A stretch of 64,000 nucleotides of DNA. Source: Sipunculus nudus. Its lineage: Eukaryota > Annelida > Sipuncula > Golfingiida > Sipunculidae. Positions 7,344 to 16,571 of this stretch are shown in pieces. The DNA lies in NCBI GenBank assembly GCA_026874595.1, contig CM049317.1, positions 50,756,118 to 50,820,117 of the forward strand, written 5' to 3'. Position numbers and translations under genes: made by a program. How positions within the stretch are numbered: the first letter of the stretch is position 1; every line of letters begins with the position of its first letter. The notes below the pieces were generated by a model. The model saw nothing but the letters and a program-made list of their open reading frames with translations. It was not told where the DNA came from and did no database searches.

Positions 7344-7597
7344 TCACTTCATAATGATACAGCCTCCAATGCACATTTCAGGAATCCATTCATTTGGGCA
7401 GCACAAACACCTGTAGAAGTCAGAGCCGTGGTAGTGGTCAAACTTACACGAGCTGCGAACACCCAGGTTTCCGCACAACACCAAACGGTTACAGAATGGA
7501 GTGGTACGTGCGTAGCGACTGATTGGGGCGCCACCTCCAGGACAATGAAGAAACTGACGTTTCTGTTTTTCCTGCGCCTTGTTCAGGTCCAGCTTAC
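7344..7597 (-). CDS. BRICHOS-like gene, last exon (cysteine-rich tail)
   Basis: The acceptor is TTCTTTCAG. Phase 1 joins exon 4 to make G167. It codes KQKR, then nine cysteines in 62 residues, including CLCC and a final CIGGC, with TGA at 7346-7344. The first part, from CPGGGAPI to FYRCLCC, faintly recalls lustrin-type cysteine-rich modules, but I would not assign it. Confidence 0.8.
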
Positions 7598-9980
7598 CTG
7601 AAAGAATACGTATTAATCAGTGATTAATGCTAGAGATCACAAAGGTAGCCTCCAGTCAGTGACAACCTTGAAAAGTATGTCACGATAAAAGACAAATAAA
7701 TCAGTCATGGGCGGCTCTGTTGCAACCACTATTGTAATAACGTTCACTATTGTAATATTTATTACAATAGTGGTTGGAAAGGGCCAGTTTTTGCCAACCA
7801 CTATTGTAATAACGGTTACTTTTGTAACAATTATTACAATCGTGGTTGCAAATGCAACCACTATTGTAATAATTTTTTATTACAATAGTGGTTGATGTTG
7901 CAGGCGGAAATTTTTCCCAGATTCGTCGAGATTCTTCCAAACAAATGACATTCCCGAATAAAAAACACACAATTCATTCTCAGTATCCCCAAAAACGCAT
8001 CAGATTGTATTTTATATGTTATTACACTAGTGAACTTTATTACATTAGTGACCGTGTCGAGAAACCACTATTGTAATAACGGTCACTATTGTAATAAAAA
8101 CTAGCGGCTACCTTTATTTCACCTCTGAAGAAATAATTCTATCGTCGTTCATCTTGAAATGCCACCATTGTTTTAAATTTTAGTTCAATTCTAAAATGCG
8201 GCAGAATTGTAGTATTTCAAACTTTATAATCCACTCTTACATCATTAATTATAGCAATTACGAAATTTATTACAATAGTGAACGTTATTACAATAGTGAC
8301 CGTGTCAAGCAACCACTATTGTAATAACGGTCACTATTGTAATAAAAAATAGCCGCCACTTTTATCTCACCACTGAAGAAATAATTTCCCTCATATTCCA
8401 TCTTGGAAAGCTATCCATCTTGTTTATATTTGTGTTCAAGTGTAAAATGCTCGGGAATTATAGTATTCCAAATGTTGTAATCCATCCTTACTTAATTAAT
8501 CATACTATAAAAATATTTATTACAATAGTGTACGTTATTACAATAGTGACCGTGTCGAGCAACAACTATTGTAATAACGGTCACTTATATGTAATAAAAA
8601 ATAGCCGCCACTTTTATCTGACCACTGAAGAAATAAGTTCCCCCACTGTTTATCTTGAAATGCCACCATTGTTTTATATGTCTGTTTAAGTGTAAAATGC
8701 TGGGGAATTATAGTATTCCAAACGTTATTATCCACTCTCACGTCATTAATTATACCTATAACGAAATTTATTACAATAGTGAATGTTATTACAATAGTGA
8801 CCGTGTCAAGCAACCACTATTGTAATAACGGTCACTATTGTAATAAAAAATAGCCGCCACTTTTATCTCACCACTGAAGAAATAATTTTTCCGAATTTTA
8901 CGAATTTAATGAAATTCATAAAAGTAAAAGGATAGGGATCTTTATTATTCAGAATACATTTACAATCCTCTCATACGTGTTTATATATGTCACAAACGAC
9001 ATTTATTACAACAGTAACAATTAATGCAATATTAAAGGCATATAGTTCGTCCCATTTTTAATGTTAAAATTGGAGTTCTTTTATAATTTTGTGGTCTTGG
9101 ATTTTCATTTTTTATTTACCACGCTGAGCCAACGTTATCTCGCTATCTATATCAGTATAATAAAACACTGGATTAACGCAGTGTCATCTTATCCTCATCA
9201 TTCATGCTGCAAGTTTGGTGACTGTAACTGAAACTCTTTTTGATTTTTTGCTTTAAAATCATTTCAGCATTATCGCCGCTGTGACCTTGAAAAATGGGCC
9301 AAGGTCATCTATGTTCGAACTTAGCCATTGATTAGGTGCATCAAAGCTGCATATTTGGTGTCTGTACCTGAAGATCTTTTCCAGTTATTGTGTTAACATA
9401 ATTTTAGCATTATCGACACTGTGATCTTAAAAATGTGTCAAGGTCTTCCATGTCCAAGCCCTTGATAAGATGCATCAATGCTGCATGTTTGTTGGCTGTA
9501 TTTCATATTCTTTTTGAGTATTTGCGTTAACATCTATTGTGACGGACGGACGGCACGACGAACGGACGCTGACCATTTCTATAGAGTTGTCAGGGGATAA
9601 TAATAACCCAATCAATGGGGGCGTAGCCAAGTAGGCCCACAGGGCCACGCCCCAACCCCCGGTCCTCCCTTCGGTACTACCAGTTATCCCGGGATTTCTC
9701 TTTGTCTAATCATAAAATTCCTGTGCTTGCATGGCACTGATGTCAGTTCACATGCAGATACATTGAGCTACATCCTTAGGATGAAATATCGGAGTTTGCC
9801 AGGAGATATCCAAGAAAACTTTAACCCCATAACTTATAAGACGGCTGAGATGTCTGTGAAACATGTACGCATTGCAAATGCAGTAATTAATATATCATTT
9901 ATCGATAACGCTACACAGCATATATATTAAAATTTTTTATTTATTTATCTTGCACAATAGTTCTAATTGTAATAAAATTA

Positions 9981-10030
<50 letters not shown>

Positions 10031-10154
10031 ATGGAACAAATGGCTACCTGGTATGATAGTACAGATTGCGATTGGGATTTGTACCAGTAAAAGTTACTAA
10101 TAGAGATCTGTACTGGTACAATTGCCAAGCGTACCAGATTGCCATTGTGTACCA

Positions 10155-10213
<59 letters not shown>

Positions 10214-11716
10214 ACCACATACCTCGAACGCAGTTAAACAAAACAAGGTTGAAACCAACTTGGCGGCAATTTCGCATTTACATTTTTACAATGTCTGTCA
10301 TACGGGAGTGAGAAAGTAACAAATAAAATTAATTTCTTGTAATATAAATATAATATAAATATAATCATATAATAATTGTTAGGATAAATAAAGACGTATC
10401 TGTGTTCACATGGTTCACATGGTAACATTCTAAATGACATAAGATACAACTCGAGTGCACTGGATGTTAGGATGTCTATATACATACTAGTTTGAAGCAA
10501 CATATGTTGGTCATTTAAAATCAACCGCGCATTTATCAGCAGCTTGCCTCACAGTATATCACGTGATCTCATCAAGCACTGAATCCTTGTCAGCCATGAA
10601 GACACTTTGGTTTCCAGGTGTTTATATCGAGCCGCTTCTAAACACCCGGGTGTTTTTACTGCTCATGTTATAGGGGCGGATGAATTATGTACAACGGAAG
10701 GGCATTATAAGACCTATTATACCTCGAATTCCCGATAAATTATTTAACAGCAAATATATCAAATATATATGGTCAAAATCAGTATTGACCCCTGACAATA
10801 ATGCTTGACATACGTCTATGTATATTAAATATTTTTTTTAAAGTTCATTTACACAAATTTGAAACTATTACAATGTATTGAGACTTATTTTGACAGAATG
10901 TTACCACTTTAAAGGGACCTTTAAACATGTTGGTAAAAGCACGTCTTTTGTCTTTCAGTAGACACCAGTGTTTTCTGCATGGTCATGACCCCATTTAAAT
11001 ATACATCATCCCATAACTGATATCTATGTATACATATAATATAATAGAAATCTTTCCATTTGTTTTTGACTTATAATCCTTACAGTACTGTCAAGTGGCA
11101 CTGATCGGGATATTATACGGCACGAAAACAAGAAAAGGATAATAGGTGGCGCCACCAGTTTCCGGTATATGACCTTACTATCCAAGATCTTCGGTCAACT
11201 TGATTTTTGGAGCAATCCATGCAAAATGTCTATATATATATTAAAGAATGAGTGTAATTTTCCCAAAAAATTGACCTGTTCAAGGTCAAGGTCACTCTCC
11301 TAGTGAATGTCATGACCCCATTTTAAATAGGCTCCGTCTTTTCAGCCATATCTATGCACATGTCAAGTTAGGTAAAGATCCTGGAAATATTTTTATCTCG
11401 CTTGAAAGAAATCTCTGCGGCGGCGGCGAAGGCGGAGGCGGCGCGACCGTGTCTGAGCCAAAGTAACACCACTTTGTCTGGGGATACAATAATATGAAAC
11501 ACGTTCCCTGTTTACCCCCTTTTTATGAGGCGTACAAACATGAAAATATGTGTTTGAATGGTCTAGTTTTCTTGATGACGCATACAACGTCATGAACGAC
11601 ATTATATAGCGGAAGACATACATTTCTAGTAAACTAGTAATATGGGTAACCAAGGTATTCATGCAGTTGCGGCAAATTTTATGAGTGGAGCAATGCGTCT
11701 CTCTCTCTCTCTCTCT

Positions 11717-11784
<68 letters not shown>

Positions 11785-14700
11785 AAATAAATAAATTTTA
11801 TAGACAAACTAATTTTTTTAATCCGAGCTTTCAAGGCGCACAGGATTCTTCATCACGTGGTGAGAGAGAACGGGTAGAGAGGTGTTTTTACATATCAGAG
11901 TAATAATGTATGGAGTCCATGGTGCAAGAAATATTTTGCACAAATATGAAATATAAGTGAAATTTGAAGATATACGATAAGGAAAAATTATTTCTTCAGT
12001 GGTGAGATAACAGTGGCGGCTATTTTTTATAACAATAGTGACCGTTATTAGTGGCTGCTCGACACGGTCACTATTGTAATAAATTTCGTTAAAGGTATAT
12101 TTAATTAAGTAAGGATGGATTACAACGTTTGGAGTACTATAATTCCCCAGCATATCACACTTGAACACAAATATAAAAAGATGGTGGCATTTCAAGACAT
12201 ACTATGAAGGAAATTATTTCTTCAGTTTTGAGATAACAGTGGCGGCTATTTTTTATTACAATAGTGACCGTTATTACAATAGTGGGTGCTCGACACGGTC
12301 ACAATTGTAATAAAGACACTATTGTAATAAATTTCGTTATAGGTATAATTAATTAAGTAAGATTGATTTCAACATTTGGAATACTATAATTCCCCAGCAT
12401 ATCACACTTGAACACAAATATGAAAAGATGGTGGCATTTCAAGATGAACTATAAGGGGAATATTCTTTAGTTTTGAGATAAAAGAGGCGGCTATTTTTTA
12501 TTACAATAGTGACCGTTATTACAATAGTGGTTGCTCGACACGATCACTATTGTAATAACGTTCACTATTGTAATAATTTTCGTAATTGCTATAATTAATG
12601 ATGTAAGAGTGGATTATAAAGTTTGAAATACTACAATTCTGCAGCATTTGAGAATTGAACTAAAATTTTAAACAATGGTAGCATTTCAAGATGAACGACG
12701 ATAGAATTATTTCTTCAGTGGGGAAATAAAGGCGGCCGCTAGTTTTTATTACAATAGTGACCGTTATTACAATAGTGGTTTCTCGACACGGTCACTAATG
12801 TAATAAAGTTCACTAGTGTAATAACATATGAAATACAAACTGATGCGTTTTATATGTATATATGAAGAAAAACAACACTATAAATTCACAGAACACTTTC
12901 AAGGGATGGAACCGGATCCTGAGCTGAAATGTTATTTGATTGGACCTGACGGCATGATTAGCATATTGTGACGTTGCAAAATTACGTTCAATCGTACCGG
13001 ATATAGAGAAAAGTGACTAGCATTTGATCCTCATGTCTCTGGGAAGAACATTTTGTGTTGTCGGGGGAACACACAGTGTTGTGACAGAGCAGGGGAACCA
13101 GGGATCATTAATGCTATTTTTTTTACATTTCAGAGTGGATTTGTTTTGATGGCGGCATTTAGAAAGAATTTCTGCTCTTGATTTCTACAATATACAGTGA
13201 AACTTCATCTATCGACGACCTACATTTAGTGACCTCCGCAAAATGATGACCACTTGTTTATAGTCCCAATTCTGTTAAGCTCTTTATATCAGATGTAGCT
13301 TATACGATGAACCGAAAATGCGACCTCATTACTGAGGTCAAATCGATGGTCGTAATTTTGCGGTTTCACAGTATATTGCTGTAAAATGTAGCGTAAGTGG
13401 CCAGTTTGCAAGCTCTGTAGATATTTTTATCTCAAATGTACCAACCTTTCAGGATCACAGCGTCCTTAGGTAGCGGTTCTTCCCGATAGAGGGCGTAACT
13501 TCCCACGGCACGTCCCATCCGTTTGCTGAGGATGGACAGGTCCTTAATTTTCTCAGTGACCACCATGTCTTGGCGGACATCTTTCTCCAGTTTCTCTTCT
13601 TTCTCCGGGGAAATGTGAAGTGCCTGCGAAACAGAATAAAAATCAACATATCGGGAAAAAAACACTTTTATGGAGCATTTTATGATATGAGATGTGTATA
13701 AAGGGGGGGGGGGGCAGGTTCCCCTGTCCCTCGAAGCACGGCCCTTGCATCAAAAGACATTTCTCCCTGAAAGAGCGACTAAACAGACGAACATGGTGGA
13801 TTCTTAAAGTCCGTCCGTCCGTCTTCATCAGTGAATGGTAGTTAAAATGTGACGTGATATTGTCATTCGTGTGTGCGTGGTCTGGTCGTAAAGTACAGGC
13901 ATACACTAACCTCAAACTGCTTGATATCAACCTCTTCTTCTCCAGGATTCGGAAATTCCTTTGTGTTAAAGTTTCTCAGGTAACATCGTTTGATGGACGG
14001 AGTGCAGCGGAGAACACGGCCCTGTAACGTTAACACGATGGATAAGTTATAGTAGTAAGCGGCCCCGGAACTGGATACGCGGCCCCGAAACGTTAACATG
14101 ATTGATTTCAGCACAGTTACGGCACAGGAACATGCATACGACGCCCTGTAACGTTAACACAATAGATAAGTTATTGCTTAGTAAGCGGCCCCGGCAAATG
14201 GATTCGCGGCCTTGGAACGTTAATATGATAGATACGTTATAGCTTATCAAGCAGCCGACGTACATGGACACGCCGCCCTGTAACATTCACATAAAAGATA
14301 AGGTCTAGCTTAGTAAGCGCCCCATGCACATGCAAACGTTGCCCTGGAATGTTAACATGATGGATACGTCATAACGAAGTAAATCAGCCCGGGAACATGG
14401 ATATGCCGCCCTGAAATTTAAACATGATAGATATGTTAAAGCCAAGCAAGCGGCATTGGATATGAATACGAAAAAAAAAAAAACAACAAAAAAAAAGCTC
14501 TGCAAAAGGAACACGTTATATAAGAAAAAGCGGAGAACAACACTTTTAATTGAACATCACATTACAGCCAGCTGTTCAATTTTTTTAGAATTTGTAATTT
14601 CTGATTTACACAGCGTACATATTGATAAAATGTACATAATTCCAGCATAGAAAGAATTGTTATCTATAAGTGTTGTTAGTGAACACGGTACATGCGTCAA

Positions 14701-16571
14701 TGTTGATAAACAGAAATTAAAAATATGCAACCTAAGGTGGAATAGGTGCAAAAGTTGAGGGCAACAAGTTGAAACACGTCACTTGCAAAACTCTGGTTCT
14801 TCTGACTTGCCGCCAGATGTCGTTGTTGGATGTGTTTGGATAATTAAGGTTGGATCCCAACTTAAAGAAAAGTGGATATGAACAAAAAGTACAACCTTTT
14901 AAAGAGCATTAGGACGTATGGTGGTATAATACCAACAAAATTCAATGTATGGCAGGCGACGAAACAGTCTTCCATCGCAGTTCATCTGACGTTACGTCGC
15001 TGAAGACGACTCAGTCACGGTGAGAGCTTGATACAACAGGCCGCCCAAGGAGATAAGGAGAATTATTATTAGATTTTGCCGTTGTTAATCTGTGCCTGTT
15101 TGTTTTTCTGATCCTCAAGTTCAGTGGAGCCTGATCGAAAGACCACCTGTCTACTAAGACCACCTGTCTACTAAGACCACCTGTCTACTAAGACCACCTG
15201 TCTACTAAGACCACCTGTCTATTAAGTCCACCCTTAAGTTAACCGATTCACATTGGTTATCACTGACTTGTCTGATAAGACCACATGTGAATTAAGACCA
15301 CTTTTTCTGGTGGAGGTAACCACCTACATTTTTAATGCGTGCTTAACTAAGTATTATGTACATCTGCAGAATTGCATTCTGGTTTCGGACTAGCTGACAG
15401 GGGCTTACACGTAATAATTCTGGCGTCAACCACGCTCAGTGTCTCACCCCTGCGGGTCCTTGGTGTGTGTCAGCCCTATTAATGAGTCATATGCATAACA
15501 CCGAGGAACCCCGGAAAGCGCACTCGTTTGCGATTGAAACTCGACTGTTGGGCACAGTCTCCCCATTAATCCTGCAGAGCGCTCACCCCGGTTGAGGCCA
15601 ACCGTGAAAAATCTCGCCGCCTCGGCTGAGATTCGAACTCACGATCTCCCGGCAGAAGCCAATATTAAGACCACTTTATACCAGTTCCATGGGTGGTCCT
15701 ATTTTACAGGTTTCCCTGTATTACATATATTTGATGTACCGGTATTAGTATGTTTTATACACTCACCGTGCTGAACTCGTACATGACTCTGCTTTCTGGA
15801 AGGTCCCGGTGAGCGGGGACTTTGATGTAAATCACTTTGTTCTTCACGTCGATGTACGACTCCTGTTTGAACAACACCCCTTTCTCTGAAACCGTCAGGG
15901 AGTGGTGCTGCAATGATATAAAATCTCTAAATATCATGCCTATCTGCCTAGCGTATCTCACCGTCCGTTCGTCCGTCCTTCCATCAAACCACCGATCAAA
16001 ATGCTTATTTTTTTTTATTTTGGTATGCAACCGATACATTGCAGGAGATCATGCCTGGTAAAATGTTTAAATGATTTACTTCCGTGAAAATCAATGGAAA
16101 CTGCTATACTTTTACCATGAACCACTTGCTGCAATGAAGATAATATATACTACCTATATTTTTTATAAGCAAAAAATCAAGACTATATACAGATTTGTAA
16201 TATACATCCTGCAGTTACTTATTTTATTTTGTTTCCATAAAATATGGTAATTCGGGTGAATTATTTAGACGACATTAATTAGTAACCCATATTGAGGGTA
16301 TATATATGTAAGAATGTAATAACTCCATTGATCTCAGGCCAACAAGACCTGCGGTAACTGTTGAAAGTTTTGTAGGGCTTCAATGAAAATATTACATGAG
16401 ATATAACTTGTAATATAAAGCTACAAAGACTCAGGATATACACTTAACCTTAAAAGTAAACTGTCAAATTATAATGGTTTTTCTAGTGATGTGATCACCT
16501 ACCTTTAAAGTAGCTCCAAGCGACAGTGAAACCACAGCGGTTGCAAAGAATACGGACACCAAACTGGTCAT
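7344..16571 (-). CDS. Secreted BRICHOS-like precursor with nine-cysteine C-terminal domain
   Basis: I assembled five coding exons whose phases agree at every join (0, 0, 0, 1): 16571-16503, 15907-15767, 14021-13911, 13623-13446, 7597-7344. Product 250 aa. Residues 1-20 form a signal peptide (MTSLVSVFFATAVVSLSLGA). Residues about 41-166 resemble BRICHOS domains of the ITM2 type: strand-rich YIDVKNKVIYIKVP, a YEFSTG element where the family has (H/Y)DF-x-x-G, KRCYL matching the first BRICHOS cysteine, and MVVTEK then GSYALYRE near its end. The second canonical BRICHOS cysteine is not visible; C76 and C83 lie close together instead. KQKR (177-180) looks like a furin site, followed by a 70-residue tail with cysteines 185, 202, 208, 217, 230, 232, 233, 242 and 246. 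BRICHOS proteins are chaperone-like precursors that release a C-terminal peptide; annelid members release antimicrobial peptides. Secretion is well supported, the BRICHOS call is moderate, and function is inferred. Confidence 0.75.
7722..7893. repeat. Nested short palindromes built on CACTATTGTAATA
   Basis: At least three local inverted repeats of the form CCACTATTGTAATA ... TATTACAATAGTGG, separated by short spacers. They use the same motif as the large foldback arms but lie about 100 bp outside the left arm. They sit in the last intron of the BRICHOS-like gene. Confidence 0.85.
7995..8895 (+). repeat. Foldback left arm
   Basis: Four ~250-bp units, each with TATTACAATAGTGACCGTGT followed by its partial inverse, then a conserved block GCCACTTTTATCTCACCACT and GAAGAAATAATT. 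The outer edge begins AAAACGCATCAG. Confidence 0.85.
8896..11974. other. Foldback loop, no gene seen
   Basis: Contains a dispersed repeat with GTGACCTTGAAAAATGGGCC and a GACGGACGGACGG tail (about 9055-9600), a related AAGGTCAAGGTCAC copy (about 10910-11450), three (TA)n arrays (9984-10027, 10157-10211, 11719-11780), a GTACCAG/CTGGTAC inverted repeat (10080-10135) and a GGCGGCGG-type tract (11415-11445). No reading frame longer than about 100 codons outside simple repeats. Confidence 0.65.
9055..9600. repeat. GACGGACGG/AAGGTCA dispersed repeat
   Basis: Internal near-repeats of about 125 bp, each with an AGCATTATCG(C/A)C(G/A)CTGTGA core and an AAGGTC element, ending in GACGGACGGACGG. This kind of element is common in mollusc DNA (from general knowledge). 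Confidence 0.55.
11975..12855 (-). repeat. Foldback right arm
   Basis: Reverse complement of the left arm, again with four units. The outer edge reads CTGATGCGTTTT, and the inner edge is near GGAAAAATTATTTCTTCAGT. The two arms are similar enough to align by eye over their whole length. Confidence 0.85.
13193..13373. mobile_element. Short inverted-repeat element, copy 1
   Basis: The ends are inverted: TACAGTGAAACTTC... at the left and ...GCGGTTTCACAGTA at the right. Interior GACCACTT, GAAAATGCGACCTCATTACT and TGGTCGTAA are shared with 37569-37747 and 54210-54353. Non-autonomous, no coding capacity. It lies in the BRICHOS-like gene's last intron, about 70 nt from exon 4. Confidence 0.75.
13446..13623 (-). 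CDS. BRICHOS-like gene, coding exon 4
   Basis: The acceptor is TTTCGCAG and the donor AAAG|GTTGGT. It is 178 nt, phase 0 to phase 1, and codes residues 108-166. It is charged and helical in composition (PEKEEKLEKDVRQ). Confidence 0.82.
13911..14021 (-). CDS. BRICHOS-like gene, coding exon 3
   Basis: The acceptor is AACGTTACAG and the donor GAG|GTTAGT. It is 111 nt, phase 0, and codes residues 71-107 with the CTPSIKRCYL cysteine pair. Its acceptor is the last unit of a seven-unit tandem array. Confidence 0.82.
14021..14420 (-). repeat. Tandem array of seven 3' splice-site-like units
   Basis: On the minus strand each unit carries an AACGTTACAG|GGC-like junction near 14021, 14084, 14145, 14210, 14277, 14343 and 14410 (spacing about 60-67). 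Six of the seven retain an AG at the junction. The unit at 14021 is the real acceptor of exon 3, and the first bases of exon 3 (GGCCGTG) match the unit start (GGCCGCG). Upstream junctions would lengthen exon 3 by about 124, 189, 256, 322 or 389 nt. Only 189 keeps the frame, and that extension meets a stop. Confidence 0.85.
14685..14880. mobile_element. Relic of the TTTAAAGG inverted-repeat family
   Basis: Shares AATGTTGATAAAC, CACTTGCAAAACTCTGG and TCTGACTTGCCGCCAGATGT with the copy at 22674-23141. The ends are not preserved. Confidence 0.55.
15125..15320. repeat. GACCACC repeat with a 17-bp tandem core
   Basis: The unit GACCACCTGTCTACTAA is repeated about five times (15140-15225), then a block shared with 36395-36545 (ACATTGGTTATCAC..., TCTGATAAGACC). 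There are no spacers between units. Confidence 0.85.
15345..15665 (-). mobile_element. tRNA-derived SINE, copy 1
   Basis: On the minus strand the head has a B-box-like GAGTTCGAATCTC, then a body shared with 47235-47610 and 59310-59600: CGAGTGCGCTTTCCGGGGTT, ACACACCAAGGACCCGCAGG, CCGAAACCAGAATGCAATTC and a CTGCAGATGTACA end. It lies in intron 3 of the BRICHOS-like gene. Confidence 0.75.
15767..15907 (-). CDS. BRICHOS-like gene, coding exon 2
   Basis: The acceptor is CATTGCAG and the donor ACG|GTGAGT. It is 141 nt, phase 0 at both ends, and codes residues 24-70 (HHSLTVSEKG to YEFST). Confidence 0.82.
16503..16571 (-). CDS. BRICHOS-like gene, coding exon 1 (signal peptide)
   Basis: ATG at 16571-16569; codes 23 residues and ends AAG|GTAGGT (phase 0). 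A 3' splice site, CCCCCAG, ends at 16594, so this exon starts at 16593 with 22 nt of 5' UTR. Confidence 0.8.

Follow-up and report, generated by a model that had tools for sequence, protein, structure and literature searches.

A palindrome in an intron of Sipunculus nudus as a probable damaged copy of a dispersed, Foldback-like DNA transposon

The palindrome and its host intron

The window analysed here, 64,000 nt of the Sipunculus nudus genome (GCA_026874595.1, CM049317.1:50,756,118-50,820,117), whose positions serve as coordinates throughout, contains a long palindrome in the last intron of a gene. This host gene lies on the minus strand and has five exons that form an open 250-aa frame, with GT and AG at all four introns. 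The N-terminus of the protein is signal-like, as judged by eye, and there is a weak match to the BRICHOS domain (PF04089; E 0.0013, 19.3 bits), below the Pfam cut-off of 25. An initial annotation of this DNA had assigned the palindrome to the last intron of an apparently intact gene for a secreted protein, and the gene structure agrees with this placement. The element that forms the palindrome, at 7718-12851, occupies 5,134 bp of intron 4, which is 5,848 bp long; the locus is a natural intron, 88% of it an inverted-repeat element, in an intact gene.

In a self-BLAST of the window, 7992-8892 and 12851-11981 aligned as an inverted repeat over 902 columns with 88.7% identity, and the outermost 389 bp of the arms (7992-8380 and 12463-12851) showed 96% complementarity. 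The reverse-complementary arms that had been reported are therefore real. They had been described as four-unit arms; they are indeed tandem arrays, but each holds about 3.5 units of ~248 bp. Tandem Repeats Finder (TRF) gave a period of 250 bp with 3.5 copies at 8019-8888 on the left, and a period of 247 bp with 3.1 copies at 12068-12824 on the right. Smaller palindromes had also been noted inside the units, and a near-perfect hairpin stands at the unit head (e.g., 8266-8346). Of the extent first proposed, 7995-12855, the start was not upheld: the aligned family ends described below place it at 7718, and the outer, hairpin-bearing segment 7718-7985 is part of the left arm. The window copy has no corresponding outer ~270 bp on the right, where family homology ends at 12851, and a second copy of the hexamer that precedes the left tip (CGGCTC, or GAGCCG) was not found in 12801-16000. 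Allowing up to two mismatches, we counted 40 occurrences of a 14-bp motif, CACTATTGTAATAA, in the window, where shuffles gave an expectation of 2.1 (largest shuffle, 8); 37 of the 40 fall inside 7718-12851. The motif recurs in every unit, and in the tip its first base is the tenth. The features of the locus are as follows.

7712..7717, no strand: left target-site copy CGGCTC (NNGCNN type), from its position relative to the aligned tips
7718..7985, plus strand: flanking domain at the outer end of the left terminal inverted repeat; opens with TGTTGCAACCACTATTGTAATAACG and contains three small hairpins (26 family ends aligned; self-complementary blocks; first hairpin folded)
7986..8018, plus strand: junction segment, beginning TCCCCAAAAACGCATCAG, between flanking domain and array (derived pattern with 62 exact genome matches; reversed control, 0)
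8019..8892, plus strand: left tandem array, ~3.5 units of ~248 bp (self-BLAST, TRF, unit alignment)
8266..8346, no strand: example of the near-perfect hairpin at the unit head, in which the 14-bp motif occurs twice on each strand, four times in all (RNA fold -42.5 kcal/mol, z -11.5)
8893..11980, no strand: loop of 3,088 bp, in which no coding domain was found, with segments common to other copies (Pfam, TRF, copy comparison)
11981..12851, minus strand: right tandem array, inverted, ~3.5 units (self-BLAST, TRF, unit alignment)
12851..12852, no strand: breakpoint at the end of family homology, beyond which neither a right flanking domain (~270 bp) nor a right target copy was found
13446..16571, minus strand: host exons 1-4 (16571-16503, 15907-15767, 14021-13911, 13623-13446)
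7598..13445, minus strand: host intron 4 (last), 5,848 bp
7344..7597, minus strand: host last exon

The loop also holds a 140-bp tandem repeat of 2.4 copies at 9204-9533 and three long AT runs.

Dispersed copies and their insertion sites

What could have produced such a structure? We searched the genome (1.43 Gb, 153 contigs) with a 506-bp stretch of two units and scored 40 of 424 candidate places, which gave 472 matches; 20 stretches were fetched from 17 of the best-scoring places, a selected and not a random sample. All 17 places carry arrays together with pieces of the same loop as the window copy. When 26 ends were aligned, 20 reached, in our reading, the common tip TGTTGCAACCACTATTGTAATAACG at full length, and the remaining six had a shortened or broken outer segment. 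In exact searches of the genome, a pattern of the inner end matched 62 times (30 plus, 32 minus; reversed control, 0) and a pattern of the tip 120 times (57 plus, 63 minus; control, 0). Merging ends within 20 kb, the 62 inner matches and the 100 of 120 tip matches listed form at least 89 clusters genome-wide. Neighbouring inner ends up to 20 kb apart run plus then minus in 13 of 17 pairs (minus then plus in three, minus-minus in one), as do 23 of 25 pairs of neighbouring tips among the matches listed (the others being plus-plus and minus-minus); the two counts overlap in that some copies are in both lists. The search for the unit that the initial annotation had proposed thus returned dispersed inverted copies, with target duplications, in place of a plain satellite.

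The three minus-then-plus pairs fall between successive copies on C5 (72988459-73017718), where four family copies stand in a row, their starts 7.8-8.1 kb apart and with ~2.6 kb between inner ends; this row looks like a segmental tandem duplication. Elsewhere, the copies vary in size and in number of units. Among the matches listed, the tip-to-tip distance ranges from 0.15 to 17 kb. A 0.7-kb miniature copy (L054) has a single unit, and another copy has at least 14 within a 3.5-kb piece (L046). In this 14-unit array (L046:1-3501), units shifted by five, eight or ten are 93.6-95.7% alike, compared with 87.2% for neighbours, a pattern as in higher-order satellite repeats.

The flanks of the copies bear a regular insertion signature. 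A tip query gave 77 matches in the fetched loci, of which we kept 35, those beginning with TGT and flanked by all 12 bases, and dropped 42 that were internal, partial or cut. First, both tips are readable in 12 copies, and 11 of these have a perfect 6-bp target duplication (GAGCGC, GAGCTG, AGGCAT, GAGCCC, TTGCAC, ACGCTC, TGGCTT, AGGCTT, AACCAC, CAGGCA and AAGCGT, the last in the miniature copy); in the other, GGGTAT/GGGCAT, five of six bases agree. The p-value for a chance 6-bp match is about 4e-4. Second, 18 of 23 target sites have a central GC and the other five CC or GG; GC accounts for 3.4% of the dinucleotides in the window. In this count, made by us, each insertion is entered once, L044 by its GC side, and one imperfect L032 tip is included. 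Third, the tips of the family are TG..CA, and the target is of the type NNGCNN.

These observations bear on whether the palindrome might be a ~250-bp satellite array in which a local inversion occurred. Such an origin would account for units that stand in tandem, up to 14 in the 3.5-kb piece, and for their longer-period similarity, but it is contradicted by the inward-facing arms, the homologous loop, the exact common tips and the 6-bp duplications, and no free-standing array was met among the 40 of 424 candidates scored. We consider it extremely improbable. The palindrome is, very probably, a damaged copy of a dispersed, non-autonomous cut-and-paste DNA transposon of Foldback-like build.

Does any copy encode its own transposase? 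The loop had been annotated as free of one, and a six-frame Pfam scan of 8893-11980 bears this out, with one hit (E 0.94) far below the cut-off; the same scan, with X at stops, gave one hit below the cut-off in L021 (E 0.18) and none in L043. Neither a Mutator-type nor a THAP/P-type transposase was found in these three loops by Pfam, and no genome-wide search for them was made. By eye, some open reading frames in the 20 fetched stretches are retroelement-like (e.g., L039 and L040), and no transposase was seen in those of L043 and L044. An 18-kb copy on C17 has reverse-transcriptase-like frames, which we take as a nested retroelement. Among the pieces read of two 17-kb copies, L045 has a gypsy-like frame and L046 is the unit array; the L051 piece has no gene recognised by eye, and L055, from the same tip pair, is a unit array. 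In L023:3900-7000, Pfam returned 21 family rows, five of them above the whole-protein cut-off (best, 38.3 bits), with no stretch passing alone. We took these rows, which include no transposase name, as repeat artefacts because the stretch is mostly a tandem array of 279 bp x 8.4. This second array (L023:4336-6670, 95% match) lies inside the loop of a family copy.

Motif conservation, divergence and a proposed mode of movement

How might such an element move? When 135 units were aligned, conservation averaged 95.7% in the 56 columns occupied by the four motif copies and 88.9% in the other 193. Because CACTATTGTAATAA is conserved above the rest of the unit, stands at the tip and has a precedent in Galileo, we regard it as a likely transposase-binding site. 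We propose an element that consists, from the outside in, of a 6-bp duplication, TG..CA tips, a flanking domain of ~270 bp, an array of ~248-bp units and a non-coding loop, followed by the mirror image. No transposase was seen in the copies read, and movement would therefore be in trans: a transposase supplied from elsewhere, which we did not find, would recognise CACTATTGTAATAA, join the two ends and insert them at NNGCNN with a 6-bp stagger. Unequal exchange or slippage would then alter the number of units. In the window, the last intron of the secreted-protein-like gene would have received a copy whose right tip was lost afterwards, presumably by deletion.

Several points weigh against this proposal. 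The contrast between motif and other columns has a rank-test p of 1e-4, with columns that are not independent of each other, and the conservation of the motif could result from hairpin-mediated conversion rather than from protein binding. The window copy has one tip, so that its own target duplication cannot be checked. Pieces from two other tip pairs, L045 and L051, have no family loop homology, L051 giving only matches of 16-35 bp. No transposase was seen in any copy read, by eye in open reading frames or by Pfam in three loops, and no genome-wide search was made. Finally, of the other of the two subfamilies described next, only two copies (L043 and L044) were compared.

The inner ends are of two types, ..GATTGTATTTTATATG or ..GTTTGTATTTCATATG, and the window copy has the GATTGTATTTTATATG type on the left and the GTTTGTATTTCATATG type on the right. 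Compared with the 20 fetched stretches, mostly of GTTTGTATTTCATATG type, window segments have a mean ungapped identity of 91-95%, arms and loop alike (60% coverage filter; 5 to 20 stretches passing per segment). For the loop segments, the means per segment are 92.6-94.8% ungapped and 85.8-86.8% gapped (seven copies). An apparently much better conservation of arms than of loops among close copies was set aside as an effect of gapped BLAST, and a difference persists only in the comparison with L043 and L044. Against L043 and L044, which have the GATTGTATTTTATATG type at both ends and gave one or two comparisons per segment, identity is 91-94% for the outer ends, 86-88% for the inner units and 78-91% for the loop. 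These values fit a burst of copying, after which the copies decayed independently, with ends that, judging from two copies and so on thin support, changed more slowly than the loop between subfamilies. Do the two arms of one copy homogenise each other? In seven copies, the similarity between a copy's own arms was below the best match elsewhere in all seven and above the mean to other copies in six; in L043, which is not among the seven, each arm matches its partner better than any arm elsewhere. No strong form of within-copy homogenisation is apparent from these comparisons, and a weak tendency is possible.

The position of the palindrome raises another explanation, that it is a double-stranded RNA module useful to the host, feeding ADAR or small-RNA pathways and regulating the host gene. 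The minimum-energy fold of the 5,848-nt intron RNA contains 812 base pairs between the arms, and the arms fold together at -1214.5 kcal/mol, against -217.1 and -259.1 alone (no shuffled control for either fold). For three hairpins of single units, the z scores are -6.5 to -11.5. Minimum-energy folding, however, ignores local hairpins that form first. Moreover, the window copy looks like an ordinary decayed member of the family, with one tip lost and with arms and loop about equally similar to other copies (mean ungapped identity, 91-95%), and its outermost arm segments, 96.2% alike, lie below their best match elsewhere (97.0%) and above their mean to others (94.0%). We judge a host function of this kind very unlikely; effects of an arm duplex as double-stranded RNA are possible. 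The initial annotation had further suggested that every pre-mRNA would carry the hairpin and that splicing of the last exon could be slowed, which may likewise be so. The damaged transposon copy remains our preferred explanation of the locus.

Other tandem repeats lie near exons of the window. Host exon 3 (13911-14021) meets a tandem repeat of 66/132-bp period (14019-14454) in which an acceptor-like stretch recurs with the unit (minus strand, AACGTTACAGGGCC); together with the repeat described next, this makes two tandem arrays in the window that overlie a splice acceptor. At 1819-2022, a tandem repeat of 43/87-bp period repeats a CTTTCAGGTATTATCACTG-like sequence, giving several acceptor-like sites in a row, which resembles a 3' splice acceptor and the start of a transporter-gene exon near 2011. 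A long open reading frame at 445-1536 encodes what we take to be a membrane transporter, of major-facilitator (monocarboxylate) look.

Comparison with known systems

The family has the build of Foldback elements, with long inverted ends composed of tandem repeats and dispersed copies with target duplications. Target duplications are 8-10 bp in Drosophila FB elements, 7 bp in Galileo and 8 bp in the TU elements of sea urchins, which have short tandem repeats in their arms; the 6-bp duplications and ~248-bp units found here differ from these features of TU, and the 6-bp length also from that in FB. Polinton ends start with AG, and these elements carry polymerase and integrase genes, whereas the tips here start with TG and Pfam found no integrase or polymerase domain in the three scanned loops (L021, L043 and the window copy).

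In architecture, the family is like Tetris of Drosophila virilis. Tetris has an external flanking domain and a variable number of ~220-bp tandem repeats per inverted arm, its middle is described there as without protein-coding capacity, its repeats share a stretch with the flanking domain, and its transposase was reportedly not found (PMC4079207). The family here shares the flanking domain, the tandem units, the non-coding middle, the variation in unit number and the lack of a transposase in the copies read. Tetris differs in its target duplication of 8-10 bp and in that its units also form long satellite arrays (PMC4079207), of which none was seen here. Galileo, of the P superfamily in Drosophila, also has long, internally repetitive inverted ends, and further binding sites for the THAP domain of its transposase lie in their tandem repeats (PMC3688188), which is the mechanism proposed here; it differs in its identified P-type transposase, no such protein having been seen in our three loops. 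Tm1, a Mutator/Foldback element of root-knot nematodes, resembles the family in its composite inverted ends of tandem repeats and its short forms like miniature inverted-repeat transposable elements (MITEs), and its arms are on average 93% alike within a copy; it differs in its 13-15-bp repeats, its mostly 9-bp duplications, the reported lack of target preference and its known putative transposase (PMC3169594). The resemblance to Foldback/TU elements noted in the initial annotation thus holds for the architecture, whereas membership is not supported: duplications of 6 bp are shorter than those of Tetris (8-10 bp) and most of those of Tm1 (9 bp).

Might the family derive from a known superfamily with 6-bp duplications? 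IS3EU usually, and GingerRoot and Polinton, make duplications of this length, and GingerRoot is the group among them said to have TG..CA ends at times (PMC10045372). According to the same paper, however, IS3EU ends are TA..TA and those of GingerRoot mostly so, and both groups are defined by a transposase that was not found here (PMC10045372). Dada-U6 and Dada-U1 are described as without terminal inverted repeats, and Dada elements lie in small-RNA genes (PMC3706591); here the inverted ends are long, and no Rfam family reached its gathering score in 7600-13450. A non-autonomous derivative of such a superfamily, most likely IS3EU/GingerRoot over Polinton or Dada, is possible but doubtful. Less probable still, and in our view unlikely, is a cut-and-paste group of its own, so far undescribed, with TG..CA tips, 6-bp duplications, a strong preference for NNGCNN targets and arrays whose units begin with a near-perfect, four-motif hairpin of ~81 nt, in which the transposase may read the extruded hairpin array and not a single tip.

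Three family strings gave no match in the literature searched, transposon databases lying outside that search; one family pattern gave none in viral contigs, and among phage records two records of one phage matched, by position at AT runs. Foldback is named once in each of two papers on satellites of clams and oysters, with reference to Tetris (PMC5139131, PMC8268682), and the first of these also names two putative MITEs in a clam (PMC5139131). Within these literature, phage and viral searches, the family, of known architecture and with its own insertion rule, is apparently undescribed. What began as an isolated curiosity is now a mobile family whose rules can be measured (its tips, a 6-bp duplication, the target NNGCNN and the motif array), and the lineage, Tetris-like in architecture and outside Drosophila, appears to be an independent one. 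It allows a fresh test of the proposal that tandem units, when they lie in the ends of transposons, collect binding sites for the transposase and give rise to satellites.

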